Program-made: the position numbers and the translations under genes
Notes under the pieces: generated by a model
Databases searched by the model: none
What the model saw: the letters and a program-made list of their open reading frames with translations, nothing else
Told to the model about the DNA's origin: nothing
Source: Lachnospiraceae bacterium
GTDB lineage: Bacteria > Bacillota > Clostridia > Lachnospirales > Lachnospiraceae
NCBI GenBank assembly: GCA_017446045.1
Contig: JAFSRP010000029.1
Coordinates: 1-44,300, forward strand
Length of the DNA stretch: 44,300 nucleotides
Direction of reading: 5' to 3'
In this document: positions 3,051 to 27,205 of the stretch, piece after piece
How the letters are laid out: the number at the start of each line of letters is the position of its first letter
How positions within the stretch are numbered: the stretch's first letter is position 1

Positions 3051-4016
3051 ATGAAAGACATCACTGCATTCGCAAAGATCCCGCTTGGCCTTTTTCCGAC
3101 ACCGATCCATAAGCTGGAGAACATCAGCAGACTGCTTGGGACCAATGTTTATATCAAACGGGATGACCTGACCGGTATAGGTCTTGGCGGCAACAAAGTA
3201 CGGAAGCTGGAATACCTGCTGGCAGAGGCAAAAGCCAAAGGAGCAGAGGTCGTATTTACGACCGGCGGAGCACAGTCCAATCATGCGATGCTGACGGCAG
3301 CCTGTGCCAAAAGGCTTGGCATGACGCCGATCCTGATCCTGAAGAAACGCGGCGTAACAGAGCGGAAAGGCAACCAGCTGCTGGAATACCTCATGGATAC
3401 GGATGTACGGTTTATGGACACGGATGACTATGAGGACATCTATCGGGAGATGGACCGGGTCGGCACGGAACTGGGCAAGCCTTATTACAAGATCCCCTGC
3501 GGCGGTTCGAATGCTCTGGGAGCGCTTGGGTATGTTGACTGTGTACGGGAGATCCGGCAGCAGGCTGACCGGATGCAGCTCAGTTTCCGGCACATCGTCT
3601 GTGCGGAAGGCAGCGGAGGCACGCATGCCGGATTGTACCTCGGTACCAGGCTGTATATGCAGGAGACGACGGTGCATGGCATGATGGTGGATACAGATCC
3701 GTTTGACCAGATCACAAGTGAGATCATCAACGGAACGATCGGGCTCCTGGGGCTCGATATGAAGATCCGTCCGGAGGACCTGCATCTTCGCGATATGTGC
3801 GGTCCGGGCTATGCGATCGCATCCGAGGAAGGCAATGCGGCGATCCGTATGATGGCAGAAAATGAAGGCCTTTTCCTGGATCCTGTATATACCGGAAAGG
3901 CGTTCGCGGGTCTGATCGCCATGGCAAAAGAAGGCGCGTTTGCCCCGCAGGAGAATGTTCTTTATATTTATTCCGGCGGTGCCGGCGGACTATTTGCGGT
4001 AGATATGAAGCTGTAA
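3051..4016 (+). CDS. D-cysteine desulfhydrase / ACC deaminase-like PLP enzyme
   Basis: 321 residues, the usual family length. The start is preceded by AAGGGAG. The sequence shows the tryptophan-synthase-beta fold signature of this subfamily: LFPTPIHKLENISRLLG, then YIKRDDLTG, then GGNKVRKLE in which the first Lys (about residue 50) should form the PLP Schiff base, then TTGGAQSNHAMLTAACAKRLG. EGSGGTHAG and YSGGAGGLFA supply phosphate-binding and C-terminal loop residues. Family members break down D-cysteine to pyruvate, sulfide and ammonia, or deaminate ACC; motif reading cannot separate these reliably, though the D-cysteine type is more likely in gut Clostridia. It is monocistronic, with its own promoter and terminator. 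Confidence 0.85.
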   Translation: MKDITAFAKIPLGLFPTPIHKLENISRLLGTNVYIKRDDLTGIGLGGNKVRKLEYLLAEAKAKGAEVVFTTGGAQSNHAMLTAACAKRLGMTPILILKKRGVTERKGNQLLEYLMDTDVRFMDTDDYEDIYREMDRVGTELGKPYYKIPCGGSNALGALGYVDCVREIRQQADRMQLSFRHIVCAEGSGGTHAGLYLGTRLYMQETTVHGMMVDTDPFDQITSEIINGTIGLLGLDMKIRPEDLHLRDMCGPGYAIASEEGNAAIRMMAENEGLFLDPVYTGKAFAGLIAMAKEGAFAPQENVLYIYSGGAGGLFAVDMKL

Positions 4017-4063
4017 CTACAGACACGGCGCCGCGCAGCAGCGGCAGTACGATCATTTCCTGA

Positions 4064-4092
4064 AACACCCTGCAGGAAGCAGGGTGTTTTTT
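4064..4092 (+). terminator. Rho-independent terminator after the PLP enzyme gene
   Basis: A 10-bp perfect stem (4064-4073 with 4079-4088, loop AGGAA) is followed by T residues. It separates the PLP enzyme gene from the DUF917/ABC operon. Confidence 0.9.
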
Positions 4093-4140: not shown

Positions 4141-4170
4141 TTGCGCAAACACACGTTAATATGCTATAGT
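4141..4170 (+). promoter_or_regulatory. Predicted promoter of the DUF917/ABC/AroM operon
   Basis: TTGCGC (4141-4146) and TATAGT (4165-4170) are 18 bases apart, and the -10 is extended by TGC. The predicted leader is about 70 bases. No riboswitch-like structure was recognised in it. Confidence 0.55.
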
Positions 4171-4248
4171 ACTAAAAAGTTAAAACAATAAAAGATATAT
4201 TATGAGGTAATGTTCCATATAGTGACATTATAATGTGTGGAGGCGGAT

Positions 4249-5358
4249 ATGGTCAGAAAACTTAGCAGGCAGGAGGCAAAGGATGTACTTCTCGGCTGTG
4301 CGATTCTCGGAACGGGCGGCGGCGGGAGCCTGATCACCGGCTGCAGGACTGTGGATGAGGACTATGGCGCAGGACTCTGTTATGAACTGATCCCGCTGGA
4401 AGAAACGGAGGATGACGGGTATTATACGAGTCCGTATAACTGCGGTTCGATCTCCGATGTGGACGAGAGAGATCCGTTCTTTTCTTATCCGATGGAAGCA
4501 AAGCGTCCGACCGTAAACGCGGTGAAGGCACTGGAAGAATTTACGGGCAAGGCCATGAGCGGTGTTGTTTCCATAGAATACGGCGGGGGCAATACAGCAC
4601 AGGCATTCACGACCGGCGCCCACATGGGGATCCCTACTGTGGATGCGGATGCGGCGGGCAGAGCCGTCCCCGAGCTTCAGTTTTCCACATTTTATGTGAA
4701 GGAACAGCCGATCAGTCCTCTGTCTGTTGCGACGGTGATCGGAGAGACCGCTGTTTTCAACCATATTCCGGATGATGCCCGTGCGGAAGCGCTTGTCCGT
4801 TCGCTCTCCGTCGTGAGCGGTAAGACGGTATCCATGTCGGACCATCTGATCACAGGCAAAAACCTGAAGTTTTCTGTTATTCCCGATGCGCTCAGTTATG
4901 CGGAAAAGGTAGGCAGGGCAAGCCGGATGGCACAGGAAGCCGGGGAAGATCCCGTGGCAGCGATCGTAAAGGCAGGTGACGGATGGCGTCTTTTTGACGG
5001 TATCGTCAGCGAGGACTGCAGCTGGTATGACGAGGGCGGTTTTACATGCGGCACGATCGAGATCGACGGTATCGGAAACGATGAAGGGAATCATTTTAAG
5101 GTCTGGTTCAAAAACGAGAACATGATCCTGTGGAAAAACGGGGAACCGTGGATCGTATGCCCGGACATGATCTGTCTCGTGGAAACGGGGGACGCCAACC
5201 CGGTGCTCAACCCAAGGTGGTATAAAGGCATGGCGGTCAGCGGACTCGGTTTCCGCTGTCATGAGATGTGGCGGAGCGAAAGGGGACTCGGGATCCTGAA
5301 TCCCGGATTCTTCGGATTTGATTACAACTGGACACCGATCGAAGAAGTGCTCGCCTGA
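4249..5358 (+). CDS. DUF917 family protein, first copy (hydantoin/thiohydantoin-metabolism type)
   Basis: 369 residues from the ATG at 4249, chosen over an in-frame GTG at 4237 because GGAGG (4239-4243) sits 5 bases before the ATG. The N-terminus has the family hallmark LLGCAILGTGGGGSL (four glycines at residues 23-26), followed by YNCGSISD, the VSIEYGGGNTAQAF loop and the VDADAAGRAVPELQ segment. The C-terminal half has EIDGIGNDEGNHFKVWFKNENMILW and WIVCPDMICL. DUF917 proteins occur with hydantoinase/oxoprolinase-type genes. From memory, one branch has been named S-methyl-thiohydantoin desulfurase, but no function can be assigned here from sequence alone. It opens an operon with a dipeptide-type importer and a second, divergent DUF917 gene. 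Confidence 0.8.
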   Translation: MVRKLSRQEAKDVLLGCAILGTGGGGSLITGCRTVDEDYGAGLCYELIPLEETEDDGYYTSPYNCGSISDVDERDPFFSYPMEAKRPTVNAVKALEEFTGKAMSGVVSIEYGGGNTAQAFTTGAHMGIPTVDADAAGRAVPELQFSTFYVKEQPISPLSVATVIGETAVFNHIPDDARAEALVRSLSVVSGKTVSMSDHLITGKNLKFSVIPDALSYAEKVGRASRMAQEAGEDPVAAIVKAGDGWRLFDGIVSEDCSWYDEGGFTCGTIEIDGIGNDEGNHFKVWFKNENMILWKNGEPWIVCPDMICLVETGDANPVLNPRWYKGMAVSGLGFRCHEMWRSERGLGILNPGFFGFDYNWTPIEEVLA

Positions 5359-5443
5359 GAGAAACAAAGAACGCCGGGTCTTTTTTACTGACTCGTGAAA
5401 GTATAAAAGAGAGAAACTCACAGTTTATATTGAGGAGGAATTT

Positions 5444-7078
5444 ATGAAAAAGAAATTAGCGCTTTTACTTTCAGTCATGTTGACGATGGGCCTGCTGGCA
5501 GGTTGCGGCGGCGGTTCCTCGGCACCCGCTTCGGGCGGCGGTTCCGGTGAGTCTGCGGCAGCCGCGACGGAGGCGGCGGCTCCGGCAGCTTCGGGTGATG
5601 AGGATATCCTGTATCACTCCTACCATTCCCAGCCGTATGTGACCCTGGATCCCAGCACCGAGTATTCCAACGGCATCATGATCCTGGGCAATGTTTACGA
5701 GACACTGACGCATTATAATGACCAGACCGGTGAGCTTGAGCCGCTTCTGGCTACCGAGTGGGGCTCGGATGACGGCGGTCTCACCTGGGTCTTCAAACTT
5801 CGCGACGATGTGACTTTCCATGACGGCAGCAAGATGACCGCGGAGACAGTCAAGAAGTCCATCGACCGCACCATCACCCTCGGCCAGGGTGCCTCCTTCA
5901 ACTGGGATCCCGTCGAGAGCGTTGAGGTCACCGGTGATTACGAAGTTACTATCAAATGCCAGTGGCCTGCGCCGATCGATCTGGTCTCTTCTGCAGGCTA
6001 TGCAGCCTATATCATGAGCGAGAATGTTATCGACAAGGATACCGAGTGGTTCAATGAGGGCAATGATGGCGGTTCCGGACCGTATATGATCGATACCGCT
6101 ACCGGCAATAATACCGTGATCCTCAAGGCTTATGAGGATTACCGCGGTGGCTGGACTGATGATCAGTACAAGGTCGTCCTGATCAAGGAGTCCTCTGAAT
6201 CGAGCGTGCGCCGTCAGCTCCTGGAGACCGGCGAGGCACAGCTTTCCGATAATTTCTCGACTACTGACCTTGATGCGCTGCGTCAGGAGACAGAGAACCT
6301 GTACAATTACAATGCTTCCACATGGAACAATGCCATCGTCTTCCTGAACTGCCAGAAGGCACCGTGTGACAATCAGGATTTCCGTAAAGCCCTGCAGTAT
6401 GCATTCCCGTTTGAAGATACGGTCAACGGCGTCATGGACGGTACGGCGGTCGAGTCGATCGGACTTGTGCCCTTTGGCATGTGGGGCCACAGCGACGATA
6501 TTTTCAAGTACAACTGTGACCTCGCGAAAGCCAAGGAATACCTTGACAAGTCCGGTGTCGATGTCAACGGACTGACCCTGGAATGCACCTATGGCGCAAA
6601 CTATCCGGAGTATTCGGGCCTCGTTCAGATCTGGCAGGCGAACCTGAAGGAACTCGGCATTTCCCTGGATGTCCGTTCAATGGAGTGGGATGCACAGTGG
6701 GCAGCCGCACAGGCGACCAATAACGAAGACCGTCAGGACATCTTTATCATGAGATGGTGGCCGGACTACGCTTCACCGGCAAGCTGGTTCGATTCCCTTG
6801 TCAAGAGTGAGGACAGTGTACAGTTCAATCTGGCATATATCAATGATCCGGAACTCGATGCAATGATCGAGGAGGCAGATGCCGCCGTAGCGACCGATCG
6901 TGCGCATGCTGAGGAGCTTTATATCGAGATCCAGCAGAAGCTGGCAGACGAAGCATACATGATCAACATGTTTGATGACAGCCGTGCGTATATTGTGAGC
7001 AAGAGCATCACGGGCGTTTACGAGAACCCGGGCTACTCCACGGTGGTACCTTATTACAATATTAAGAAAGTACAGTAA
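5444..7078 (+). CDS. ABC importer substrate-binding lipoprotein (family 5, peptide/nickel/small-molecule type)
   Basis: 544 residues, preceded by GAGGAGG. The N-terminus MKKKLALLLSVMLTMG then LLAGC is a lipoprotein signal, with Cys21 as the lipidated residue, followed by a Gly/Ser/Ala-rich linker of about 35 residues. The mature part has family 5 features: LDPSTEYSNGIMILGNVYETL, then EPLLATEW and LTWVFKLRDDVTFHDG, and the late DYASPASWF and YNIKKVQ-type ending. Family 5 proteins bind oligopeptides, nickel, or other small polar compounds outside the membrane. Its position between a DUF917 gene and the permeases suggests that it captures the substrate the DUF917 and AroM proteins act on. A hairpin and terminator-like structure follow it, probably allowing more binding protein than permease. 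Confidence 0.9.
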   Translation: MKKKLALLLSVMLTMGLLAGCGGGSSAPASGGGSGESAAAATEAAAPAASGDEDILYHSYHSQPYVTLDPSTEYSNGIMILGNVYETLTHYNDQTGELEPLLATEWGSDDGGLTWVFKLRDDVTFHDGSKMTAETVKKSIDRTITLGQGASFNWDPVESVEVTGDYEVTIKCQWPAPIDLVSSAGYAAYIMSENVIDKDTEWFNEGNDGGSGPYMIDTATGNNTVILKAYEDYRGGWTDDQYKVVLIKESSESSVRRQLLETGEAQLSDNFSTTDLDALRQETENLYNYNASTWNNAIVFLNCQKAPCDNQDFRKALQYAFPFEDTVNGVMDGTAVESIGLVPFGMWGHSDDIFKYNCDLAKAKEYLDKSGVDVNGLTLECTYGANYPEYSGLVQIWQANLKELGISLDVRSMEWDAQWAAAQATNNEDRQDIFIMRWWPDYASPASWFDSLVKSEDSVQFNLAYINDPELDAMIEEADAAVATDRAHAEELYIEIQQKLADEAYMINMFDDSRAYIVSKSITGVYENPGYSTVVPYYNIKKVQ

Positions 7079-7086
7079 GCGGTTTA

Positions 7087-7122
7087 TATAATTTGCGGGA
7101 CAGTAAAGTATCGCGAATTATA
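7087..7122 (+). other. Long inverted repeat at the 3' end of the binding-protein message
   Basis: 7087-7097 pairs with 7112-7122 over 11 bases (one G-T pair) around a 14-base loop, just after the lipoprotein stop codon. It has no T-run, so it looks like an mRNA-stabilising stem rather than a terminator. An outer 6-bp pairing (7080-7085 with 7145-7150) would enclose it but could be chance. Confidence 0.45.
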
Positions 7123-7165
7123 TTACAAAGATGCAGAAGATAAGAAACCGTTTTTAAACAAACAC

Positions 7166-7196
7166 GGCGGCGTCCGCAATACGCCGCCCTCTTTTT
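7166..7196 (+). terminator. Intercistronic, probably partial, terminator between binding protein and permease
   Basis: An 8-bp GC-rich stem (7166-7173 with 7181-7188) is followed by CTCTTTTT. It lies inside the operon, 16 bases before the DppB-like ATG. The likely role is attenuation, giving more binding protein than membrane subunits. Confidence 0.7.
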
Positions 7197-7211
7197 AAAC
7201 AGGGAGTTCCC

Positions 7212-8222
7212 ATGAGCAAGTACATTATAAAGCGTCTGCTCCTGAGTATTCTGGTCCTGTGGGGTGTTGTGACGATCACGTTCTTTATTTCCCGCGTCAT
7301 CCCGTCGAACCCGGCTACGAAATGGGCAGGCACGCGCGCCACGGCAGAGCAGCTGGCGGCTGCGGCGGAGGAACTGGGATTAAATGATCCCCTTCCGGTG
7401 CAGTATGTTCATTATCTGGGAGATATGCTTCACGGAGATCTGGGCGTCAATTACAGCACGAAGATCCCGGTTACGAGAGAGATCCTGACCTATGCCCCCG
7501 CGACGATCGAACTGGTTTTGCTTGCATTTATTTTCGCGATCGTGATCGGCATCCCGCTGGGCATCTATTCAGCCAAAAAGAAAGATAAAATGCTGGATCA
7601 TACAGTGCGTTTCTTCTCGATCGGCGCAGTCTCGCTGCCGACGTTCTGGGTCGCGCTCTTTTTCCAGCTGATTTTTTATAAGGTCCTGAAGCTGCTGCCG
7701 ATCGGGGGACAGATCTCATCTACCGCGCTTATTTTCGGAGAAAAGCCCCATGTGACCGGCTTGCTGCTCCTGGACTGTCTGCTTACGGGTAATTTCAAAT
7801 TGTTCTGGGACGCTTTCCGGCATATTCTGCTGCCCTGCATTACAGAGTCGCTCTATCCGATCGGTCTCGTTGCCAGGATGACCAGGAGTGCCCTGCTGGA
7901 GATCCTCGGTGAGGACTATATCACAGCGGGACGAAGCTACGGCCTGAAAGAGGCCAAGATCCTGTGGCGCTATGCGCTTAAGAACAGTCTTGGAGCGACT
8001 GCGACAGATGTGGCGCTTTCCATGGGATATACCCTGACCAATACTTTCCTGGTAGAATCGATCTTTTCATGGCCGGGCATTGGAAGCTACATTTCCTCTG
8101 CTGTCACGACACTTAATTTCCCGGCGATCATGGGCGTGACGGTATTTGGCGCAACGGCATACATCCTGCTGAATCTGCTGGCTGATATCATCATCGCCAT
8201 GGATCCGCGTGTCAGACTGTAG
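7212..8222 (+). CDS. DppB/OppB-type ABC importer permease
   Basis: 336 residues with an N-terminal helix, VVTITFFISRVIPSNPA, and the ELGLNDPLPVQYVHYLGDMLHGDLGVNYSTK periplasm-facing segment that is diagnostic of DppB-type permeases. About six membrane helices are visible. The coupling (EAA) loop reads GRSYGLKEAKILWRYALKNSLG near residue 235. The conserved VESIFSWPGIGSYISSAV and the MDPRVRL C-terminus complete the match. It should form a heterodimeric channel with the DppC-like protein encoded 11 bases downstream. The ribosome binding site is AGGGAG. Confidence 0.92.
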   Translation: MSKYIIKRLLLSILVLWGVVTITFFISRVIPSNPATKWAGTRATAEQLAAAAEELGLNDPLPVQYVHYLGDMLHGDLGVNYSTKIPVTREILTYAPATIELVLLAFIFAIVIGIPLGIYSAKKKDKMLDHTVRFFSIGAVSLPTFWVALFFQLIFYKVLKLLPIGGQISSTALIFGEKPHVTGLLLLDCLLTGNFKLFWDAFRHILLPCITESLYPIGLVARMTRSALLEILGEDYITAGRSYGLKEAKILWRYALKNSLGATATDVALSMGYTLTNTFLVESIFSWPGIGSYISSAVTTLNFPAIMGVTVFGATAYILLNLLADIIIAMDPRVRL

Positions 8223-8233
8223 GAGGGCGGGCT

Positions 8234-9115
8234 ATGCATAACTTTATTGAAAATATGAAGCCAAAGTGGAAGAGCTTCCGTGAAAGCATGTATCTGCTTG
8301 CAAAGAATAAGCTTTCCCTGGTTGCATTCGTTATCATTATCCTGTTCATCGGTATGGCGATCTTCGCTCCCGTGATCGCGCCCTACCCCGAGGATGTTTA
8401 TTCCACGCATATCAGTGAAAAACTGCTGCCGCCGAGCGCTGCACATCTGATGGGTACGGACGAACTGGGCCGGGATGTGTTCAGCCGTGTTATTTTCGGT
8501 ACGCGTGTATCGATCTCTGCAGCATTGGTCGCGGTCGCGATCGCGCTGATCATCGGCGTGCCTTTTGGCGCGCTGGCAGGCTGCTACGGCGGCTGGGTCG
8601 ATAACGTGCTCATGCGCATCACCGATGTTTTTCTTTCCTTCCCGCCGCTGCTCCTTGCTATCGCTCTCGTTGCGCTCCTTGGAGCAGGCCTGAAGAATGC
8701 CATTATAGCTATCGTTATTTCCTGGTGGCCGTGGTATACGAGACTGGTGCGCGGGCAGGCGATCAGTATTCGCGAACGGAAATTCGTGCAGGCTGCCGAG
8801 ACCATCGGTACGCCAAAGAGCAGGATCATTTTCAGCCACATTATTCCGAACTGTATCAGCCCGGTCATCGTGCAGGCATCCATGGATATCGGAGGCGTCA
8901 TCATGACGCTTGCCTCCCTGTCCTTCCTTGGCCTGGGTGCACAGGCGCCCACCCCGGAATGGGGACTGATGATCTCGGCGGGACGCTCGTTCTTCCCGGA
9001 TAAATGGTGGTGCTGTATCTTTCCGGGCGTCGCCATCTTTTTGACGGTGCTCTCCTTCAACCTTCTCGGCGATGCGATCCGTGAGATCCTCGATCCGAAG
9101 ACACGTAAGAAGTAA
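8234..9115 (+). CDS. DppC/OppC-type ABC importer permease
   Basis: 293 residues. The cytoplasmic N-terminal tail leads into the first helix (LVAFVIIILFIGMAIFAPVIAPY) and the typical LMGTDELGRDVFSRVIFGTRVSISAAL motif of DppC-type permeases. The coupling loop reads AETIGTPKSRIIFSHIIPN near residue 190, followed by SLSFLGLGAQAPTPEWG and the LGDAIREILDPKTRKK C-terminus. It pairs with the DppB-like subunit. The stop is 11 bases before the next start, with an AGGAGG ribosome binding site in the gap. Confidence 0.92.
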   Translation: MHNFIENMKPKWKSFRESMYLLAKNKLSLVAFVIIILFIGMAIFAPVIAPYPEDVYSTHISEKLLPPSAAHLMGTDELGRDVFSRVIFGTRVSISAALVAVAIALIIGVPFGALAGCYGGWVDNVLMRITDVFLSFPPLLLAIALVALLGAGLKNAIIAIVISWWPWYTRLVRGQAISIRERKFVQAAETIGTPKSRIIFSHIIPNCISPVIVQASMDIGGVIMTLASLSFLGLGAQAPTPEWGLMISAGRSFFPDKWWCCIFPGVAIFLTVLSFNLLGDAIREILDPKTRKK

Positions 9116-9126
9116 GGAGGCGGGAT

Positions 9127-10932
9127 ATGGCATATTTTGAGATAAAAGACCTCGTTGTAAAACATAAAAGCTTCGAGGGCATCAAAACGGTCCTCGACAT
9201 CGAACATCTTGCCATTGAAAAGGGAGAAACTTTCGGCATCGTCAGCGAATCCGGCCAGGGAAAGACCGTGCTGGCGCTGACGATCCAAAAATTGCTGGCG
9301 ACACCTCCGGGTATCATTGAAAGCGGGGAGGTCTTCCTTGATGGAGAAGATCTTTTTAAAAAGACGCCCAGGCAGATGCAACGCACGATCAACGGGAAAA
9401 AGATCGCCATGATCTTCCAGGACCCCATGAGCTGTCTGAATCCGGTATTCACCGTCGGATATACGATGATCGATGTGCTGCGGGAGAACCGCGGCATGAG
9501 CAGGAAAGAGGCAAAAGCGGAAGCCATCCGGCTGCTTGAAGAAGTCAAGCTCTCCGATGCGGGAAGCGTTATGGGCAAATATCCGCACCAGCTGTCTGGC
9601 GGACAGCGGCAGCGCGTCATTATCGCTCTGGCACTCTGTTGCGGCGCGGAGTTCATGATCGCGGACGAACCGACGAGAAATCTGGATGTTACGATCCAGG
9701 CGAGCGTGCTCAAACTTCTCAAGGAACTGCAGAGGAAACATGCGATCACCGTCCTCTTCATTGCCAATAACCTTTCCCTCATATCCGCCTTTTGCGACAG
9801 GGTCGCGATCCTGCATGACGGCCGGATCGTTGAGGAAGGTGATGTGCGCGAGATCGTCAGGAATCCGCAGAATGCATATACAAAGATGCTGCTGTCTGCG
9901 GTCAGCCGAACACATAAGACAGAAGAAACGGACGCGGAAAAGCCGGTACTTCTTGATGTGCAGGGCCTGAAAAAATATTTCCTGATCAACGATGAGATCA
10001 AGCATTTGAAAAACCTGACCCTGAAGGCGGTGGACGGTGTATCTTTCAAGCTCCGGCAGGGCGAAGTGCTCGGCATCGTCGGCGAGTCCGGCTGCGGAAA
10101 ATCGACACTGGTCAACACGATCCTGAATCTCTACGAGCCGACGGACGGCAAAGTGTTTTTTGACGGGCAGGATGCTTTTGCCGGGGGGAAGCGGAACAAT
10201 GCTTTCAAAAAAAATGTGCAGATCGTTTTCCAGGATCCGTACTGGTCCCTGAATCCGCGCTGGCTGATCAAGGATATCGTTGCAGAACCGCTCGATGTCT
10301 ATGAAAAACTCAATGAAAACGAGCGTGTGGCACGTGTTAAAGAACTTCTTGCCATGGTGGATATTCCGGAAGATGCCTGCTACAAGTACCCGCACGAGTT
10401 CTCCGGCGGACAGAGGCAGCGTATCGCGATCGCGAGGTCACTTGCCTCCAATCCGAAGCTGGTCGTGCTCGATGAACCGACGAGTTCGATCGACGTGTTC
10501 TCACAGGCGCAGATCCTGGACCTGATCAAAGACCTGAGGAAACGCTTCAATCTGACGAACATACTGATCAGCCATGATCTTGGCGTCGTACACGATCTGT
10601 CCGACCGGATCGCAGTCATGTATCTCGGCCACATCGTGGAGTTCGGTCCGGCAGAGGAGATCTTCAGTAATCCGCAGCATCCCTATACCCAGGCGCTGTT
10701 TGACTCGATCCCGGATGTTGACTCGTTCGGCATTGAAAGCCTGAAGACGCTCGAGGGACAGATCCCGAGTCCGATCAATCCGCCTTCGGGGTGTACCTTC
10801 CATACGCGCTGTTCGAAAGCCTGCGAGGCCTGCGCGCAGCGGACGCCAAAGGAGACCGTCATCGGAGAGGGACATGTGGTGAGTTGTATCCTGTTTGAGA
10901 AAGACGGGACGGAAGCGGGTATTGCCGGTTGA
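9127..10932 (+). CDS. Fused DppD-DppF-type ABC importer ATPase (two nucleotide-binding domains)
   Basis: 601 residues carrying two complete ABC domains in one chain, where classical Dpp systems use two proteins. Domain 1 (about residues 1-260) has Walker A SESGQGKT, signature LSGGQRQRV and Walker B FMIADEPT. Domain 2 (about 275-530) has GESGCGKS, FSGGQRQRI, LVVLDEPT and the H-loop ISHDLG. In domain 1 the H-loop is altered: the usual T-H-D reads A-N-N at residues 213-215, so the switch histidine is missing and that site may be catalytically weak. The C-terminal tail is the oligopeptide-transporter extension, with five cysteines between about 558 and 591; in some Dpp ATPases such a tail holds an iron-sulfur cluster. 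It powers the DppB/DppC channel. Confidence 0.92.
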   Translation: MAYFEIKDLVVKHKSFEGIKTVLDIEHLAIEKGETFGIVSESGQGKTVLALTIQKLLATPPGIIESGEVFLDGEDLFKKTPRQMQRTINGKKIAMIFQDPMSCLNPVFTVGYTMIDVLRENRGMSRKEAKAEAIRLLEEVKLSDAGSVMGKYPHQLSGGQRQRVIIALALCCGAEFMIADEPTRNLDVTIQASVLKLLKELQRKHAITVLFIANNLSLISAFCDRVAILHDGRIVEEGDVREIVRNPQNAYTKMLLSAVSRTHKTEETDAEKPVLLDVQGLKKYFLINDEIKHLKNLTLKAVDGVSFKLRQGEVLGIVGESGCGKSTLVNTILNLYEPTDGKVFFDGQDAFAGGKRNNAFKKNVQIVFQDPYWSLNPRWLIKDIVAEPLDVYEKLNENERVARVKELLAMVDIPEDACYKYPHEFSGGQRQRIAIARSLASNPKLVVLDEPTSSIDVFSQAQILDLIKDLRKRFNLTNILISHDLGVVHDLSDRIAVMYLGHIVEFGPAEEIFSNPQHPYTQALFDSIPDVDSFGIESLKTLEGQIPSPINPPSGCTFHTRCSKACEACAQRTPKETVIGEGHVVSCILFEKDGTEAGIAG

Positions 10933-10976
10933 TGCTTAAACCGAGGCTCCGCTGCAATTTGAAAGGAAAAGATTAA

Positions 10977-11657
10977 ATGATCGACAAACCAGCCATCGGC
11001 CTGATCGCGATGGGAAAGAAAGAAAACCGGTATCTGTGGCAGGATCTCATCGACAGATTCGGGCCGGACGCAGATGTGATGTTCCGTGGGGTCCTGGACG
11101 GGTTCGAACCGGAGGAGATCAGGGAGAAATTTGCTTTTTCCGAAGGCGATCATTACATCGTCACAGAGCTTCCGGATAAAAGTACCGTTCATATCAGTGA
11201 ACGCGCTGCCCGGGAACAGGTCAGCCGGATCACGGAGGAACTGTTCAATGCGGGAGCGGCAGCAGTCCTGGTGCTGTGTACCGGTGATTTTGAAAGAAGC
11301 GGGACAGAGAAGGGATTGCTTGTATTTCCGGAAGATATTCTCTTTGGCCTGCTTTCCGGTCTGAAACAGACAGCGATCGGCTTCATTGTCCCTGAAGAAG
11401 GGCAGATCGATGGTTCCGCGGAACACTATGCAGTGTTGCATCCGATCGTGAAGGCGGCATCGCCCTATGGTCCGATGGAGAAACTGCGGGAGACGGCTGC
11501 ATCATTCAGGGAAGAACCGGTCAATGTCATTGTGACCGACTGCATGGGTTTTACCGCAGAAATGGGGCAGCTGGTCTCAGAGGTCAGCGGTAAGCTTGTT
11601 CTTGTGCCGCGTGTGGTGATCCCGAAGCTGCTGTGCTCGATGATCATGCAGAAATAA
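10977..11657 (+). CDS. AroM family protein with a racemase-like cysteine pair
   Basis: 226 residues, the usual AroM length, with AAAGGAAAAG as ribosome binding site. Matches to AroM include GLIAMGKKEN near the start, RGVLDGF, then VLVLCTGDF with Cys101, IGFIVPEEGQ, and VIVTDCMGFT with Cys189. AroM was named after its position in the E. coli aroL region and has no proven reaction. Its layout resembles the Asp/Glu/hydantoin racemase superfamily, where two cysteines about 90-110 residues apart act as the acid and base. The 88-residue spacing of Cys101 and Cys189 fits that (inference). It lies 44 bases after the ATPase gene and 25 bases before the second DUF917 gene, so a shared pathway is likely. 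Confidence 0.82.
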   Translation: MIDKPAIGLIAMGKKENRYLWQDLIDRFGPDADVMFRGVLDGFEPEEIREKFAFSEGDHYIVTELPDKSTVHISERAAREQVSRITEELFNAGAAAVLVLCTGDFERSGTEKGLLVFPEDILFGLLSGLKQTAIGFIVPEEGQIDGSAEHYAVLHPIVKAASPYGPMEKLRETAASFREEPVNVIVTDCMGFTAEMGQLVSEVSGKLVLVPRVVIPKLLCSMIMQK

Positions 11658-11682
11658 TTTACGAAAGAAAGGAATACATGCG

Positions 11683-12780
11683 ATGAAAGTACTATCCAGA
11701 CAGGAACTGATGAACATTCTTTACGGATGCGCGATCTATGGTACGGGCGGCGGCGGAAGTCTGACCGACGGCATTGACATGATCGAGGAAGCGCTCGCAG
11801 CAGGGAAAGAGTTTAAGCTTGTGACATTTGAAGAACTGGATCCTGATGTTCTGATCGGGTGCCCTTACGGCTGCGGAGCGATCAGCCCGCATTCGGAAGA
11901 GGAGATCCGCAAGTACGCAAGGCTTCCGCTTGCAAAGGAAAACTATTTCTGCCTGGCAACGAAGCAGCTTGAGGATTTCTGCAGAAAACCGCTTTCCGCG
12001 ATCATCAGTACAGAACTGGGTGCCCATAACACGGCGACCGCTCTGTATGTGGCGGCAATGACGGACAAACTGATCGTGGACGGCGATCCGGCAGGCCGGA
12101 GCGTCCCGGCGCTGCAGCATTCTACCTATTACCTCCATGGTGTACCGATGACCCCGATCTCGGTCATGAACAAATTCGGTGAAGGCGCTGTCTTTACAAG
12201 CATTGTGGATGATGAACGTGCCGAGGATCTGGTGCGCGCGCTGGCGGTCGTGTCCCAGAATAACATCGCGGTCGTGGATCATGTCAATACGGCTGCAGTG
12301 CTGAAGGATGCGGTGATCAACGGCGCGATCTCCCTCACGGAAAAAGTCGGCGGCGCATTCCTGAAAGCACGGGAAGAGGGCAGTGATGCCGTAGAAGCCG
12401 TTCTGAAAGCCGGAAGCGGAAAGAAAATGTTCGAAGGAACAGTTGTAAAGAGCTGTTTCGAGACCAGAGACGGATATACATTTGGAGATACATACATCGA
12501 GGGAAGCGGAAGATGCGCGGGACATACGCTCCGGATCTGGTATCAGAATGAGAACATCATCAGCTGGCTGGATGATGAGATCTATGTTACCGTGCCGGAT
12601 CTCATCTGTGTTTTCGATATGGACAACATAGAACCGCAGCTGAATCCCTACGCCAGGGTCGGAGAAAAAGTGAGTGTGATCTGTCTGCCGGCGCCGGCAG
12701 AGTGGACGACGCCGAGAGGCCTGGAAGTCTTCGGTCCGAAGTTCTTCGGATATGACATCGAATACAAGCCGTTTATCTGA
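11683..12780 (+). CDS. DUF917 family protein, second copy
   Basis: 365 residues. It shares the family N-terminus LYGCAIYGTGGGGSL (glycines 22-25), then CPYGCGAISPHSEEE, ISTELGAHNTATALYVAA and the VDGDPAGRSVPALQHSTYYL segment. It also shares VVDHVNTAAVLKDAVINGAISLTEKVGGAF and the IWYQNENIISWLDDE region with the first copy at 4249-5358. The two proteins are clearly paralogs but differ at many positions, so this is not a recent duplication. They may form a mixed complex or act on successive intermediates (inference). AAAGAAAGGAA precedes the start by a short distance. It ends the operon, before a strong bidirectional terminator. Confidence 0.8.
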   Translation: MKVLSRQELMNILYGCAIYGTGGGGSLTDGIDMIEEALAAGKEFKLVTFEELDPDVLIGCPYGCGAISPHSEEEIRKYARLPLAKENYFCLATKQLEDFCRKPLSAIISTELGAHNTATALYVAAMTDKLIVDGDPAGRSVPALQHSTYYLHGVPMTPISVMNKFGEGAVFTSIVDDERAEDLVRALAVVSQNNIAVVDHVNTAAVLKDAVINGAISLTEKVGGAFLKAREEGSDAVEAVLKAGSGKKMFEGTVVKSCFETRDGYTFGDTYIEGSGRCAGHTLRIWYQNENIISWLDDEIYVTVPDLICVFDMDNIEPQLNPYARVGEKVSVICLPAPAEWTTPRGLEVFGPKFFGYDIEYKPFI

Positions 12781-12806
12781 GAAGCGTACTTTCTGATCTC
12801 AATAAC

Positions 12807-12836
12807 AAAAGCTGCCGCACCGATGCGGCAGCTTTT
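12807..12836. terminator. Bidirectional rho-independent terminator
   Basis: A perfect 13-bp stem (12807-12819 with 12824-12836, loop CCGA) has A residues on its left arm and T residues on its right. It can end both the rightward DUF917/ABC operon and the leftward CapA-like gene. Confidence 0.9.
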
Positions 12837-18320: not shown

Positions 18321-21137
18321 ATGAACAAACAACAGATACTGATGAGCTGGAAACAGGCCAGCGAGCTGACAGAGATCTTTGCAGGGTATCCGCGGATGCT
18401 CTCATCGGATGAAAAACAGACATATGATGATCTGTTCCGCGGGACGCTGGCAGGGGTGCAGATCCCCCTTTGGGCTTCCCTCTGCTGTTCAGACAGCGGA
18501 TGTCTGATGGATGAGACTACACTGAAGATCGTGCAGTATTACCATCGGTTCGGATACCGTCAGGCTGAGATGGATAAAAATCCACCCGACTATATCGGGC
18601 AGATGTACCGCTTTTTATGTTATCTGTATGCCTGCGCCCTGCATGGCGGAGAGGGATCGGAGTCATTCGCGGGAGCGGCCGGAGAGTTTGCCGGGACTTA
18701 TCTGAAACCGACTGCCGCTGCTGTCGCGGCGGGGATCCGTCGGTATGCCGAGACCGGATATTTTTCGGAGATCGCGGGAAAGATAGAGCAGTTCGCATGT
18801 ACGGCGGGAAATACCGCGGATACTGCTGTAAAACAGAAGATCTCCATGGAGGAAGACCTGTCGGGGGCCGGTCTCCAATGTGTTGAAAACTACCGTCTGG
18901 GACCGGATCCGAAGATCCCGGACGGGGAGGCGCAGCGGATCTTCACTGCGGGAAGAAATAACTGCGGAGGCAGATGTCCTCTGGAGACGACCGTACAGGA
19001 TGGCTGTCTCACAGCGCTTAAAGCATCGTCACAGATCGGCCTGCCCGGACTTCATGCATGTATCCGTCATACCGGTTACCGGCGGACCTATCTGTCCCCC
19101 GAACGCCTTCGATATCCAATGAAGCGGATCGGTAAACGGGGAGAAGGACACTTTCAGAGGATCAGCTGGGGGGAAGCGGAGGAACTGCTGACTTCCGAAT
19201 GGATCCGGATCCGGGATACCTACGGGCCGGGGTCACGTATGCCGCTCTATGGCTGGGGCGTGTCTGCCGTGATGCGGCCGAATTCGCTTTTGAACCGGCT
19301 GCTCAGCCTGGACGGCGGATATCTCGATCATTACGGCTCGTACAGTTCGATCCAGACAGTTACGGCGACCCCCTATGCATACGGTGATTTTCGCAGCGGA
19401 AACAGCGTTGAAGACCTGGCAAATACGAAGCTGCTCATCCTGTGGGGGCATAATCCCGCGGAGACGATCTTTTCACCGCAGATATTCTATTATATAAGTA
19501 AAGCAAAGGAAAGAGGCGCCCGGGTGATCGTGATCGATCCGCGGCGTTCTGACAGCGCGGAGAAGCTGGCAGACGAATGGATCCCGATCCGGCCTTCCAC
19601 TGACGCGGCACTGGCGGCTGCTCTTGCCAGGGTCATACTGTCCGAAGGTATCCAGGATCAGGCTTTTATGGATCGATATTGCCTGGGATTCGATGGAGAC
19701 CATATGCCGGAAGGTGTTCCGGCAGAACTGAATTATCAGGCATATCTGTCCGGTGAGACAGACGGGATCGAAAAATCGCCGGAGTGGGCGGAATCGATCA
19801 CAGGTGTTCCGGCAGATACGATTCGGAGACTGGCCAGAGAATATGCGGCTGCCAAACCGGCATGCCTTCTGCCCGGACTCGGATACCAGCGTACGGAACA
19901 CGGGGAGCAGGCGACCCTGGCACTTATCGCATTGTGCTGTCTCACGGGTAATGTAGGGATCCCCGGCGGGGGTTCGGCTGGATCAGGTATTTCGGCGGAG
20001 GAGAAACAGCCGGTCTTCCCCATGCCGAAAAATCCGTATCCGGGAAGCATCTCCTGTTATGTCTGGACGGATGCTATCCGGCACGGCAGTTCCATGACTG
20101 CCGCAGACGGTGTAAGGGGCATGGACCGGCTGGCATCGGATGCCAGGATGGTATTCTGTATTGCCGGCAATGTGCTGATCAACCAGCATTCTGATATTCC
20201 CGCTACGCAGGCGCTCCTGCAGGACGAGACCAAAGCGGAGTTTATCGTCTGTTCGGACGTATTTATGACGCCAAGCGCCAGGTTTGCGGATCTTTTGCTG
20301 CCGGCACCGTCCTTCCTGGAAGAGGACAATATCACAGGCCCCTGGAGATCCGGGCATTATCTGCTCTCCAACCACAGGACGATCGATCCTCTGTTTGACT
20401 CCCGAAGCGAATACGAATGGATCGGGGAGCTTGCCCGGAGGCTCGGGCTTTGGGAGGAATGGTCGGAAGGACATGTTTCGATGGAGGACTGGCTGCGGGA
20501 GATCTACGGAAAGTTCCGCGGAAAGAATAAGGATATTCCGGATTATGACATGTTCCGTGAGAAGGGGGGCTTCGCCTACAAAGACGCAAAGCCGTATATT
20601 GCTTTTGAGGCCCAGATCCGGGATCCGGAACACCATCCCTTCGGAACCCCGTCCGGAAAGATCGAGATCTTTTCAAAGCAGCTGTATGACAGAAAGGACC
20701 CGATGATCCCCGCGCTGCCTGTGTATATTCCCGCAGTCGAAGGACCGGAGTCGGAAATGCGCCGGAAATATCCGCTGCAGCTTTTTGCGTGGCATACCCG
20801 CCGCCGCTGCCATACGATCCATGATAACAATCCGCAGATGGAACGGCTGGAACCCCAGAGGCTCTGGCTGCATCCCGCGGATGCCGGATCCAGGGGGATC
20901 TCGGACGGAGACCTTGCCGAGGTGTTCAATGACCGCGGCTCGATCAGGATCCGGGTCACTGTGACCGACCGGATCATGCAGGGGACAGCTGCCATGCCGC
21001 AGGGCGCCTGGTATACACCGGGCCCGGATGGTGTGGATACACGGGGCAGCATCAATGTGCTGACAGCATACAGACCGACGGCACTTGCCAAGGGCAATCC
21101 ACAGCACACCAATCTTGCAGAAGTCCGCCGGATATGA
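18321..21137 (+). CDS. TorD-like chaperone domain fused to a DMSO-reductase-family molybdoenzyme
   Basis: 938 residues with AAGGAG before the start. Residues 1 to about 195 are helical and resemble TorD/DmsD maturation chaperones, including NPPDYIGQMYRFLCYLYACAL at 87-107 in place of the E-P-x-D-H-I-G motif. From about 206 onward it matches DmsA-type catalytic subunits: NNCGGRCPL, HACIRHTGYRR then RLRYPMKRIG, GGYLDHYGSYSS (Ser342 is the expected Mo ligand), VIVIDPRRSDSAEKLADEWIPIRP, and a C-terminal cofactor-binding domain ending near KGNPQHTNL. The first of the four cluster cysteines is Gly211; only Cys215, Cys219 and Cys247 remain. There is no Tat signal, so the enzyme should be cytoplasmic, and no DmsB or DmsC gene is adjacent. 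Substrate and electron donor are unknown. Confidence 0.88.
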   Translation: MNKQQILMSWKQASELTEIFAGYPRMLSSDEKQTYDDLFRGTLAGVQIPLWASLCCSDSGCLMDETTLKIVQYYHRFGYRQAEMDKNPPDYIGQMYRFLCYLYACALHGGEGSESFAGAAGEFAGTYLKPTAAAVAAGIRRYAETGYFSEIAGKIEQFACTAGNTADTAVKQKISMEEDLSGAGLQCVENYRLGPDPKIPDGEAQRIFTAGRNNCGGRCPLETTVQDGCLTALKASSQIGLPGLHACIRHTGYRRTYLSPERLRYPMKRIGKRGEGHFQRISWGEAEELLTSEWIRIRDTYGPGSRMPLYGWGVSAVMRPNSLLNRLLSLDGGYLDHYGSYSSIQTVTATPYAYGDFRSGNSVEDLANTKLLILWGHNPAETIFSPQIFYYISKAKERGARVIVIDPRRSDSAEKLADEWIPIRPSTDAALAAALARVILSEGIQDQAFMDRYCLGFDGDHMPEGVPAELNYQAYLSGETDGIEKSPEWAESITGVPADTIRRLAREYAAAKPACLLPGLGYQRTEHGEQATLALIALCCLTGNVGIPGGGSAGSGISAEEKQPVFPMPKNPYPGSISCYVWTDAIRHGSSMTAADGVRGMDRLASDARMVFCIAGNVLINQHSDIPATQALLQDETKAEFIVCSDVFMTPSARFADLLLPAPSFLEEDNITGPWRSGHYLLSNHRTIDPLFDSRSEYEWIGELARRLGLWEEWSEGHVSMEDWLREIYGKFRGKNKDIPDYDMFREKGGFAYKDAKPYIAFEAQIRDPEHHPFGTPSGKIEIFSKQLYDRKDPMIPALPVYIPAVEGPESEMRRKYPLQLFAWHTRRRCHTIHDNNPQMERLEPQRLWLHPADAGSRGISDGDLAEVFNDRGSIRIRVTVTDRIMQGTAAMPQGAWYTPGPDGVDTRGSINVLTAYRPTALAKGNPQHTNLAEVRRI

Positions 21138-21338: not shown

Positions 21339-22559
21339 ATGAAAAAAGAAAACATAAAGAAGATCGTGCTTGCGTATTCGGGCGGACTGGATACTTCCAT
21401 CATCATCCCCTGGCTGAAGGAGAATTACAATGACCCTGAGATCATCGCTGTCGCCGGAAATGTCGGTCAGGCAGATGAACTCGAAGGTCTGGAAGAGAAA
21501 GCGCTGAAGACCGGCGCCTCCAAGCTGATCGTGGCGGATCTCGTGGATGAGATGGTAGATGAGATCATTATTCCGGCATTGAAGATGGACGCGAAGTACG
21601 AGACTTATCTGCTCGGAACCGCCTTTGCGCGTCCGGTGATCGGCAAGAAGCTGGCAGAGATCGCTCTGGCAGAAGGCGCGGATGCGATCTGCCACGGCGC
21701 GACCGGAAAGGGCAACGACCAGGTCCGTTTTGAGCTGGCGATCAAGCGCTTTGCACCGGATATGCACATTATCGCTCCGTGGCGTGAGTGGGACATCAAA
21801 TCACGTGACGAAGAGATCGACTATGCGGAAGCACACAATGTACCGCTGAAGATCAGCCGTGAGACCAACTATTCAAAGGACAAGAACCTCTGGCATCTGA
21901 GCCATGAAGGTCTGGATCTGGAAGACCCGGCCAATGAGCCCGATTATGACAAGCCCGGTTTCCTGGAGATGGGCGTTTCCCCGGCACAGGCTCCGGATGA
22001 ACCGACCTATGTGACGATCGATTTTGAAGCCGGCGCACCGGTTGCTCTTGACGGTGAGAAGATGAAGGCTTCCAAGATCATCGAAAAGCTGAATAAACTT
22101 GGCGGTGCCAACGGCATCGGTATCATCGACATCGTGGAGAACCGTCTCGTGGGCATGAAGGACCGCGGCGTTTACGAGACACCGGGCGGCAGCATCCTGT
22201 ATAAGGCGCACGAGCAGCTTGAGATGATCACGGTCGATAAGGATACCCTTCATGTCAAGCAGAAGCTGGCGGTAGACTATGCCGACCTTATCTATAACGG
22301 CAAGTGGTACAGCCCGCTGCAGGAAGCGCTTACCGCATTTGCGAATGAGTCCAACAAATATGTGACCGGCTCCGTGAAGATGAAGCTTTATAAGGGCAAT
22401 ATCATTCCGGCAGGAACCACTTCCCCGTACTCCCTGTACTCCGAGAACCTGGTGACCTTCGGTGAGAGCGATTATGATCAGGGACAGGCAGCAGGCTTTA
22501 TCAACCTTTGGGGCCTTCCAATCAAGGTACAGGCACTTCGCGAGCAGGGCAGACTGTAA
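21339..22559 (+). CDS. argG: Argininosuccinate synthase
   Basis: 406 residues, normal length, with GGAGG 9 bases before the ATG. The ATP pyrophosphatase loop AYSGGLDTS at residues 10-18 and [14 protein letters not shown] define the family, and the [25 protein letters not shown] and [13 protein letters not shown] blocks are typical. It joins citrulline and aspartate using ATP to give argininosuccinate. It is the first gene of the argGHCJBDF operon, right after the ARG-box promoter, and is expected to be repressed when arginine is plentiful. Confidence 0.98.
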
Positions 22560-22597
22560 AACAGATAACCCCAGAATTGATCAGACGGAGAGTTTTC

Positions 22598-23986
22598 ATG
22601 GCGAAAATGTGGGCCGGACGGACGTCCGGAGAAACAGATAGTCTGGCAGATGAACTGAATTCATCCATCGGTGTGGACTGCAGGATGTACCGGCAGGATA
22701 TCCGGGGCAGCCAGGCCCATGCAGCCATGCTGGGCAGGCAGGGGATCATCACGCAGACGGATGCGGAACAGCTGATCGCAGGGCTGGAACAGATCCTGCA
22801 GGATCTGGAAAGCGGCGCACTCAGCTTCGATATGAGCTGTGAGGACATCCACATGTTTGTGGAGCAGGTCCTGACAGACCGTCTGGGGGATGTTGGGAAA
22901 AGACTCCATACAGCCCGCAGCCGCAATGACCAGGTGGCACTGGACCTGCGTATGTATCTGCGGGATGAAGCAGCGGATCTGCAGAAACTGATCCGGGATC
23001 TCCTGCAGGTGCTGGTCCGCGTTGCGGAACAGAACATGAAAGCCGTTATGCCGGGGTATACCCATCTGCAGAGAGCCCAGCCTGTTTTGTTCCCGCAGCA
23101 TATCCTGGCGTACGCCATGATGCTTTTACGGGATGCGGACAGACTTCGTGACTGTGTGAAACGGATGAATGTTTCTCCTATCGGAAGCTGCGCCCTGGCA
23201 GGCACGACCTATGAAACAGACCGCATCTATGAGGCAGGACTGCTTGCATTTGACGATATCGCCATGAACAGTATCGATGGTGTTTCGGACCGGGATTTCT
23301 GTCTGGAGATGATGAGTGCGCTCTCGATCCTGATGATGCATCTGAGCCGGTTTGCCGAGGAGATCGTACTGTGGTCGAGCTGGGAATTCAAATTTATCGA
23401 ACTTTCCGACGCCTATACCACCGGCTCATCGATCATGCCCCAAAAGAAGAATCCGGATATGGCAGAGCTGATCCGCGGCAAGACCGGAAGGGTCTACGGA
23501 GACCTTATGGGTCTGCTGACGACCTTTAAGGGCCTTCCGCTGGCGTACAACAAGGACATGCAGGAAGACAAGCAGGCCGTATTCGATGCGGTCGACACCG
23601 CGAAGCTCTGTCTGCAGGTGATAGCGCCGATGGTGGATACGATGAAAGTCCTGCCGGATAACATGCGGCGGGCGGCACAGAACGGTTTTATCAATGCGAC
23701 GGATCTTGCGGATCATCTGGTGAAGAAGGGGCTGCCGTTCCGCAGTGCTTACAAGATATCCGGCGAGATCGTGGCGGACTGCATTCGGAAAGGACTGGTT
23801 CTGGAGACCTATCCGCTGGAAGCATATAAGGCATACAGCGAGTTGTTTGCAGAGGATGTCTACGACGATATCAGTATTGAGACCTGTGTGGAGAAGCGTA
23901 TCTCGAAGGGAGGCACCAGCACCGGGTCTGTCCTGGAGCAGATCGCCTGGGTGAAAGAACGGATAAAAACGCAGTTCGAAGAGTAA
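22598..23986 (+). CDS. argH: Argininosuccinate lyase
   Basis: 462 residues from the ATG at 22598, which is preceded by GGAG; the frame is open further upstream into argG but the family starts with KMWAGRT as here. The signature GSSIMPQKKNPD lies near residue 280, and HTARSRNDQVALDLRMY and GYTHLQRAQP are the other conserved fumarase-superfamily blocks. It splits argininosuccinate to arginine and fumarate. It lies 38 bases after argG and is followed 16 bases later by argC. Confidence 0.98.
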   Translation: MAKMWAGRTSGETDSLADELNSSIGVDCRMYRQDIRGSQAHAAMLGRQGIITQTDAEQLIAGLEQILQDLESGALSFDMSCEDIHMFVEQVLTDRLGDVGKRLHTARSRNDQVALDLRMYLRDEAADLQKLIRDLLQVLVRVAEQNMKAVMPGYTHLQRAQPVLFPQHILAYAMMLLRDADRLRDCVKRMNVSPIGSCALAGTTYETDRIYEAGLLAFDDIAMNSIDGVSDRDFCLEMMSALSILMMHLSRFAEEIVLWSSWEFKFIELSDAYTTGSSIMPQKKNPDMAELIRGKTGRVYGDLMGLLTTFKGLPLAYNKDMQEDKQAVFDAVDTAKLCLQVIAPMVDTMKVLPDNMRRAAQNGFINATDLADHLVKKGLPFRSAYKISGEIVADCIRKGLVLETYPLEAYKAYSELFAEDVYDDISIETCVEKRISKGGTSTGSVLEQIAWVKERIKTQFEE

Positions 23987-24002
23987 AAAACGAGGACACG
24001 AT

Positions 24003-24992
24003 ATGACAAAAGTATTCATCGACGGCAGTGCCGGCACGACCGGTCTGCGGATTCATGAAAGACTGAAGGAACGGTCGGATCTGGAACTGGTCACTCTGAG
24101 CGGGGAGCAGCGTAAGGATCCAACTGCACGGAAAGAGGCCATCTGCAATGCGGACGTGGCCTTTTTGTGCTTGCCTGATGCAGCGGCGATCGAGGCGGTG
24201 GCACTGGCAGAAGGCTGCGATACGGTGATCATCGATACCTCAACGGCGCATCGTACCGCGGAAGACTGGACGTATGGCTTTCCGGAGATCTCAGGCTTCC
24301 GTGAGAAGATCCGGGTCTCCAAACGGATCGCCAATCCGGGATGCCATGCCAGCGGTTTTATCTCTCTGGCAGCACCCCTGACAGAAGGCGGCCTTTTGAA
24401 AAAGGATGCATCCCTCACTTGCTTTTCACTGACCGGGTACTCCGGCGGCGGGAAAAAGATGATCGGGCAGTATGAGATCACAGACGGGACAGACGCAGCG
24501 GGCAGCTGTGATGCGGCTTCGAAGCAGGCGGCGCTTTCCGGCAGGGATCCGCTGCTGAATGCGCCGCGTCAGTATGGCATCAGTCAGATGCACAAGCATC
24601 TTCCGGAAATGCAGAAGTTCTCCGGACTTGAGACAGCGCCGGTGTTCTGCCCTATCGTGGCAGATTACTACAGCGGGATGGAAGTGACCATCCCTGTCTT
24701 CTCATCCGATCTGAATGCTTCTGTTGATGAGGTACGGGCGTTCTTTCGTGCATATTACAACGACCGACCCGGGCTGGTCCGCTATGAGGACAGCATGGAT
24801 GAGGGTGGATTCATAGCGGCAAACCGCATGTCCGGCAGGGATGACATGGTGGTGACGGTCACAGGCAATGAGGATCGGATCCTGCTGGTATCTCTGTTCG
24901 ACAATCTCGGCAAGGGAGCTTCCGGTGCCGCGATCCAGAGTATGAACATTGTGCTGGGTGTGGATGAATATACCGGACTAGTTATCGGGTAA
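24003..24992 (+). CDS. argC: N-acetyl-gamma-glutamyl-phosphate reductase, short (type 2) form
   Basis: 329 residues, with a GAGGA ribosome binding site. The nucleotide-binding start VFIDGSAGTTGLRIHERL, the catalytic cysteine in NPGCHASGF (Cys114), FPEISGFR and SLTGYSGGGKKMI identify it. The short length and G-S-A-G-T-T-G-L start place it with the type 2 reductases rather than the longer type 1 form usual in Bacillus. It reduces N-acetylglutamyl phosphate to the semialdehyde with NADPH. Within the operon it sits apart from argB, with argJ between them. Confidence 0.95.
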   Translation: MTKVFIDGSAGTTGLRIHERLKERSDLELVTLSGEQRKDPTARKEAICNADVAFLCLPDAAAIEAVALAEGCDTVIIDTSTAHRTAEDWTYGFPEISGFREKIRVSKRIANPGCHASGFISLAAPLTEGGLLKKDASLTCFSLTGYSGGGKKMIGQYEITDGTDAAGSCDAASKQAALSGRDPLLNAPRQYGISQMHKHLPEMQKFSGLETAPVFCPIVADYYSGMEVTIPVFSSDLNASVDEVRAFFRAYYNDRPGLVRYEDSMDEGGFIAANRMSGRDDMVVTVTGNEDRILLVSLFDNLGKGASGAAIQSMNIVLGVDEYTGLVIG

Positions 24993-25019
24993 ATATTCAC
25001 AGGGAAGGACAGTAAACGG

Positions 25020-26234: not shown

Positions 26235-26245
26235 GAGGTATAAGC

Positions 26246-27121: not shown

Positions 27122-27205
27122 CCGGCCCGTCCTGCGGTTTTGCGAAACATCCCTTTATAAATGGCATTATCCATCAATAAGTTCTGAGAATATGGAGAAA
27201 GAAAA

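Follow-up and report, generated by a model that had tools for sequence, protein, structure and literature searches.

Cyclic dipeptides (2,5-diketopiperazines) are widespread, and they withstood all the peptidases tried in a 2013 study (PMC3852281), which records bacteria that open these rings, leaves the hydrolysing enzymes unclear, and cites a cyclo(Gly-Gly) hydrolase activity described in 1985 from Bacillus sp. No. 106. The closest described gene association appears in a 2024 study (Nat Commun, PMC11055893), the available portion of which reports an enrichment of hydantoin racemases, DUF917 proteins and AroM proteins in those cyclodipeptide oxidase clusters that have no cyclodipeptide synthase, and that these clusters also hold ATP-binding cassette (ABC) dipeptide transporters and peptidases. 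In that portion DUF917 proteins are predicted to be hydantoinases and AroM proteins isomerases, both families are called experimentally uncharacterised, and the oxidases are said to occur in anaerobes as well. The subject here is a 44,300-nucleotide stretch of a Lachnospiraceae bacterium (assembly GCA_017446045.1, contig JAFSRP010000029.1, positions 1 to 44,300), hereafter the window, and within it a seven-gene operon on the forward strand (4249-12780) that encodes two DUF917 proteins (DUF917A and DUF917B), an importer of the dipeptide type and an AroM protein. The operon shares DUF917, AroM and the importer with the clusters of the 2024 study, as far as its available text describes them, and differs from them in lacking DUF6092 and the cyclodipeptide oxidase and in carrying two DUF917 paralogues.

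The operon is real and conserved, and it varies a gene association that was described in 2024. What is added here is evidence from dipeptidase and carbamoylase genes, an altered binding protein, near-identical loci in other genomes, and a recurrent pair of DUF917 paralogues. The locus is best read as importing a small cyclic amide. The fuller proposal, that the operon serves to break down small neutral cyclic amides, with cyclic dipeptides as the likeliest of these, stands at about even chances on the comparative evidence given below. An earlier annotation made from the DNA alone (the sequence-only reading) had named no characterised system with this exact gene set; that statement stands in the literature searched, in which, subscription papers being outside its scope, no experiments on the set were found, the looser association in the available text of PMC11055893 being the nearest approach.

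The genes follow one another as DUF917A (4249-5358), a family 5 solute-binding lipoprotein (SBP_bac_5; 5444-7078), DppB-type and DppC-type permeases (7212-8222 and 8234-9115, both BPD_transp_1), a fused DppD-DppF ATPase with two ABC_tran and two oligo_HPY stretches (9127-10932), AroM (10977-11657) and DUF917B (11683-12780). Each of the seven families exceeds its Pfam gathering score, and the open reading frames and Pfam agree on the order and common direction that had been read from the sequence. The intergenic gaps are 85, 133, 11, 11, 44 and 25 bases, a spacing from which a single transcript for all seven genes would be expected. DUF917A starts at the ATG at 4249, with GGAGG at 4239-4243; the open reading frame list begins it at a GTG at 4237.

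The seven-gene set is more than a chance cluster. When four aligned DUF917 proteins were used to scan the contigs of GTDB genomes, at least 367 relatives were confirmed, of which the best 80, together with two plasmid loci, form a set of 82 loci. Neighbour profiles were built from this set and from AroM loci and then mapped onto all 82; in every profile cluster the family had been verified with Pfam or NCBIfam for one member or several. Genes on either strand counted as neighbours if they lay no more than 8 kb from the seed DUF917 gene; near relatives were counted separately, and the counts are lower bounds on account of contig ends. DppB or DppC lies near DUF917 in 39 of the 82 loci and shares its strand in each of them (DppC in 39, DppB in 36, the solute-binding protein in 32). 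Other neighbours are an M29-like family (26), PucR (23), NCS1 permeases (23) and PF01177 racemases (18), followed by PepV-type M20 peptidases (14), nitroreductases of CDOA size (12), a second DUF917 (11), a larger nitroreductase (11), AroM (10), DUF6092 (9) and PepT-type M20 peptidases (5). Same-strand counts are unchanged or nearly so except for PucR (12), NCS1 (21), DUF917 (10), DUF6092 (8) and the PepT type (4). Where AroM is present it stands immediately before DUF917 in eight of ten loci.

DUF917B falls within a supported 18-row clade, mainly of Oscillospiraceae and Lachnospiraceae, in a tree of 96 proteins. All 15 other loci of this clade have the importer upstream on the same strand (five of the 15 contigs start inside it), directly so in 12; in L050, L055 and L056 an AroM or racemase gene intervenes. 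The order in L050 is solute-binding protein, DppB, DppC, ATPase, AroM, DUF917, nitroreductase, DUF917, and L056 repeats it from DppB, where its contig starts; the DppB proteins of the two are 83-84% identical to that of the window. The window has the same families minus the nitroreductase, its second DUF917 being of another clade and located upstream. The sequence-only reading had treated the genes as one functional set, and the neighbourhood search bears this out, both in the 39 of 82 loci with Dpp genes near DUF917 and in the 22 of 24 genomes, described below, in which AroM and DUF917 lie within 6 kb of each other.

Further evidence on what might be imported comes from the binding protein. 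The permeases and the ATPase have matches among Dpp, Opp and Nik models, and the transporter parts lie in the same order as in E. coli DppABCDF, from which the window differs in the fusion of DppD with DppF and in a binding protein that is 25% identical to DppA. In DppA, Asp408 and Arg355 are taken here to bind the amine and the carboxylate of a dipeptide, respectively. The window lipoprotein keeps an equivalent of the aspartate and lacks one of the arginine, and so does not have the pair of residues expected of a DppA-type binder of linear dipeptides. Among 33 binding proteins the aspartate is kept in 29 (and in 18 of 18 in a smaller alignment), while none of the 33 has an arginine at or within two columns of the Arg355 position; the loop in question aligns differently in two alignments and is free of arginine in both. 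These observations bear on the possibility that the importer is a plain one for di- or oligopeptides, placed beside DUF917 and AroM proteins of some other purpose, such as the handling of modified or D-amino-acid peptides inside the cell. In its favour are the presence of DppA among the best solved-structure matches of the binding-protein profile, the retention of the aspartate, and a hairpin after the binding-protein gene that could uncouple expression. This explanation is nevertheless improbable, given the arginine missing throughout and the recurrence of importer and DUF917 together in loci of Bacillota, Chloroflexota, Spirochaetota, Bipolaricaulota and Thermotogae.

The nature of the ring is suggested by the company that related DUF917 genes keep. 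The M20 neighbours of PepV size match PepV and Sapep dipeptidase models in all 14 cases; the three with bit scores are all over the Sapep cut-off, one of them over the PepV cut-off too, and the one M20 neighbour scanned from Bipolaricaulota is over a PepT-like cut-off. Cyclodipeptide oxidase A and B (PF00881 and PF19585) occur together within 8 kb in nine of the 82 loci, in one on the other strand, sample members having been confirmed by Pfam. Matches to the carbamoylase of the hydantoin pathway over the TIGR01879 cut-off were found in 15 stretches from 13 of the 45 source genomes searched, and none of the 15 lies inside the fetched loci; that of L060 is 1.9 Mb from DUF917. Dipeptidase-like neighbours, taken with the lack of carbamoylases in the fetched loci, therefore point to cyclic dipeptides. 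The same two facts count against an alternative in which a 5-substituted hydantoin, or an allantoin-like ring, is taken up and opened by DUF917 to an N-carbamoyl amino acid, with AroM serving as hydantoin racemase. That alternative, which we regard as unlikely, draws on the PF01177 racemases of the 18 loci mentioned above, on the proposal, in the available text of PMC11055893, that DUF917 proteins are hydantoinases, and on one match of the AroM model considered below.

A number of observations weigh against cyclic dipeptides as the substrate. NCS1 is the family of a known hydantoin transporter, and the NCS1 permeases and the PucR proteins of the 82 loci would also fit hydantoin- or allantoin-like rings. 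The carbamoylase of L063 lies on the DUF917 contig, about 13 kb away and just outside the fetched stretch, and a table for C. difficile, in the available part of PMC12915319, places a DUF917 gene next to one annotated hydantoinase. Any ligand that has no carboxylate would be compatible with the missing arginine, and the retained aspartate is what one would expect of a binder of amines. The window operon itself contains no cyclodipeptide oxidase, PF01177 racemase or dipeptidase, these being known from relatives at 40-70% identity, and its AroM-bearing near relatives L050 and L056 likewise have no dipeptidase. Finally, a fold search with the DUF917B model (mean predicted local distance difference test score, pLDDT, 95.6) returned 2o3i, an uncharacterised DUF917 structure, as its sole match, so that no catalytic analogy for DUF917 could be drawn.

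Since the operon is without a dipeptidase, it would need one from elsewhere, and a candidate of the PepV/Sapep family is present on another contig of the same genome (385 bits, cut-off 208). This genome comprises 2.26 Mb in 63 contigs and is 79% complete. Within it there was no match to PF19585, nor was there one in the control genomes, and none to Hydantoinase_B (PF02538), which was found in 6 of 14 controls. The remark in the sequence-only reading that no HyuA/HyuB-type gene is present therefore holds for Hydantoinase_B in the assembled part of the genome, HyuA not having been searched. Its suggestion that the DUF917 pair and AroM may be a complete alternative route was overstated, as the loci of many relatives have a further gene for a racemase, peptidase or flavin enzyme.

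Both DUF917 proteins carry the S-Me-THD_N and S-Me-THD_C domains, with scores for PF06032 and PF20906 of 125.7 and 170 bits in DUF917A and 125.6 and 188.9 bits in DUF917B (cut-off 27), and they are 40% identical to each other. They have in common E111, N116, D133, D135, R139, E181, S191, D199, H200, N289 and E290. At position 146 histidine is found in 94% of 80 B-type proteins and phenylalanine in all eight A proteins, a count from which eight outlying rows (Q, N, M, L or H at this position) are excluded. The same two-domain Pfam family includes the S-methyl-thiohydantoin and thiohydantoin desulfurases (NF058532 and NF058529), and a role in handling such a thioamide would agree with both gathering scores being exceeded; it is highly improbable, as the window proteins reach 54-59 bits against the equivalog cut-offs of 440-450, about one-eighth of what is required, and assignment to the desulfurase branch was rejected on this account. 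Of the cyclic amide or thioamide proposed as cargo in the sequence-only reading, the cyclic amide thus remains, the thiohydantoin does not, and a hydantoin is less supported than a cyclic dipeptide.

DUF917A belongs to a distinct clade of eight rows (support 100/98) that includes one Spirochaetaceae, one Acetomicrobium (Synergistota) and several Bacillota rows; the window protein sits on a branch of length 1.08, and because this branch is long its exact place is unsure. Seven of the eight A-clade loci carry a second DUF917 from outside the clade, the eighth (L119) ending 1.5 kb past the A gene, and L096, the next row outside the clade, has a single DUF917. As the 82 loci were fetched with DUF917B as the leading query and are biased towards it, a search led by DUF917A was made in 398 genomes of the phylum. 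The best three non-self matches, at 53-55% identity, were G671 and G652, which map as L119 and L066, and G631, a new locus with the solute-binding protein, DppB, DppC, the A gene, an M29-like gene, a second DUF917 and racemases; the interpretable cases are both A/B pairs, one of them new. Weaker matches at 40-45% (G564, G610, G470 and G468, the last being L096) have one DUF917 in the stretches examined. To judge from the tree and these loci, DUF917A and DUF917B are paralogues that diverged long ago and are found together repeatedly, a finding new to this analysis, and the pairing is a target worth testing.

AroM scores 142.9 bits against PF07302 (cut-off 23.8) and falls below the cut-off of the NCBIfam equivalog PRK10481 (123 versus 198). 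A sequence search against solved structures gave nothing credible, but the predicted structure (pLDDT 91.3) matched glutamate racemase 2gzm (best E value 2.4e-6), allantoin racemase 5lg5 (2e-5), arylmalonate decarboxylase and maleate isomerase in Foldseek, the second of these being the match that lends itself to the hydantoin alternative. With the aspartate/glutamate/hydantoin racemase superfamily, represented by 2gzm and 5lg5, AroM shares the fold, at a TM score of about 0.6, and two conserved cysteines, although its identity to these enzymes is 10-15% and it forms a separate Pfam family. Cys101 is conserved in 32 of 32 AroM proteins and Cys189 in 31 of 32, one fragment having been excluded; the assignment of the pair is by conservation and not by superposition on solved active sites. 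The model fits a two-cysteine acid-base enzyme, a less likely alternative being that it uses this fold as an isomerase or a decarboxylase.

For the cyclic dipeptides favoured above, one may picture a pathway in which the lipoprotein captures the ring and DppB, DppC and the fused ATPase import it, as their families would predict. DUF917A and DUF917B would then act as ring-opening hydrolases, perhaps as a pair or on different stereoisomers, and AroM might invert the alpha-carbon by way of its two cysteines, making D-containing rings usable; the linear dipeptide would presumably be cut by a general dipeptidase encoded elsewhere, such as the PepV/Sapep-family protein. The acidity of diketopiperazine alpha-protons has been measured, according to the available text of PMC8159430, and a ring racemase is therefore chemically sensible. 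A more specific version, in which a heteromeric DUF917A/B cyclic-dipeptide hydrolase, an AroM diketopiperazine racemase and the importer would let anaerobes of the gut and elsewhere use cyclic dipeptides of either handedness without oxygen or a cyclodipeptide oxidase, is tentative and rather doubtful. Enzymes that open cyclic dipeptides are poorly known, and three enzymes and a binding protein from this operon are candidates for such a pathway.

The distribution of AroM and DUF917 places the operon in a wider frame. Within the same order AroM exceeds its cut-off in 3 of 295 genomes and DUF917 is found in 15, so that the operon is sporadic there, and neither a second AroM nor a further DUF917 was found elsewhere in its own, 79% complete, genome. 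Among the 398 genomes sampled from the phylum, DUF917 occurs in 64 and AroM matched in 45, in 43 over the cut-off. Four weak or partial AroM matches were dropped (G346, G382, G492 and G517), of which two (G382 and G517) nominally exceed the cut-off and three (G346, G492 and G517) come from genomes with DUF917. DUF917 is then present in 24 of 41 AroM genomes as against 40 of 357 others (odds ratio 11, Fisher p 3e-11, uncorrected for relatedness). Counted by eye, the two genes lie on one contig within 6 kb in 22 of the 24 genomes with both, the exceptions being G468, where they are 24 kb apart, and G678, where they are on separate contigs. Most of the 24 have a DUF917 of a different, low-scoring subfamily (65-87 bits). 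Among 14 regions fetched around such pairs (L124-L137), nine combine a PF01177-type racemase with DUF1177 and an OPT transporter (Pfam on single members), and one (L133) has a Dpp-type importer; the window operon is thus one configuration of a wider association.

As to transcription, a promoter at 4141-4170, claimed in the sequence-only reading, is plausible. By eye, a weak -35 element (TTGCGC, 4141-4146) and an extended -10 element (TATAGT, 4165-4170, preceded by TGn) can be discerned with an 18-base spacer; the site is absent from the 11 found by a promoter scan, a total near the 7.8 +/- 3.0 of shuffled sequences, and the assignment goes no further for that reason. The terminator claimed at 12807-12836 is confirmed by folding as a strong hairpin of 13 pairs around a loop of 4 bases (-21.6 kcal/mol; z -6.4 relative to shuffled sequences), which the terminator pattern scan did not list. 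A terminator-like hairpin at 4062-4090 (z -4.4) sets the operon apart from the gene upstream, and another, found by pattern scan and folding between the binding-protein gene and dppB (7166-7188; 8 pairs and a T-run, z -3.0), means that the binding-protein gene and the remaining genes may be transcribed unequally.

Several features of related DUF917 loci may be recorded. The M29-like proteins beside DUF917 have about 340-350 residues, and their Pfam M29 matches are sub-threshold or absent. A family of about 279 residues lies beside DUF917 and AroM in L066 (13634-14461) and nine other loci; the two members scanned matched nothing in Pfam significantly. The closest plasmid-borne relatives of DUF917B (46% identity), on two Rhodobacterales plasmids (L042, 10001-11146; L043, 10001-11104), stand downstream of a LysR regulator and of another kind of ABC importer, made up of an extracellular solute-binding protein, one ATPase and two permeases. 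An NCS1-type permease, a regulator of the Lrp/AsnC type and a TonB-dependent receptor accompany DUF917 in L076 (5747-11134) and in similar loci of marine gammaproteobacteria (Pfam assignments from the L076 members).

Around the operon itself, the gene just upstream (3051-4016, forward strand) encodes a PALP enzyme of a family related to D-cysteine desulfhydrase and 1-aminocyclopropane-1-carboxylate deaminase; it was considered as a member of the operon and set aside, since its own strong hairpin ends its unit and it stood alone in the first clustering. Downstream, a forward-strand gene at 18321-21137 encodes a 938-residue catalytic subunit of the dimethyl sulfoxide/selenate reductase type (TIGR02166, 847 bits, over the cut-off, residues 203-938), whose N-terminus (residues 28-109) has a match to PF02613, the nitrate reductase delta chaperone-like family; no partner subunit was found among the downstream genes scanned. 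These are contiguous arginine biosynthesis genes on the same strand (21339-29373), which encode argininosuccinate synthase and lyase, a semialdehyde dehydrogenase, ArgJ, an amino acid kinase, a class III aminotransferase and an ornithine-type carbamoyltransferase.

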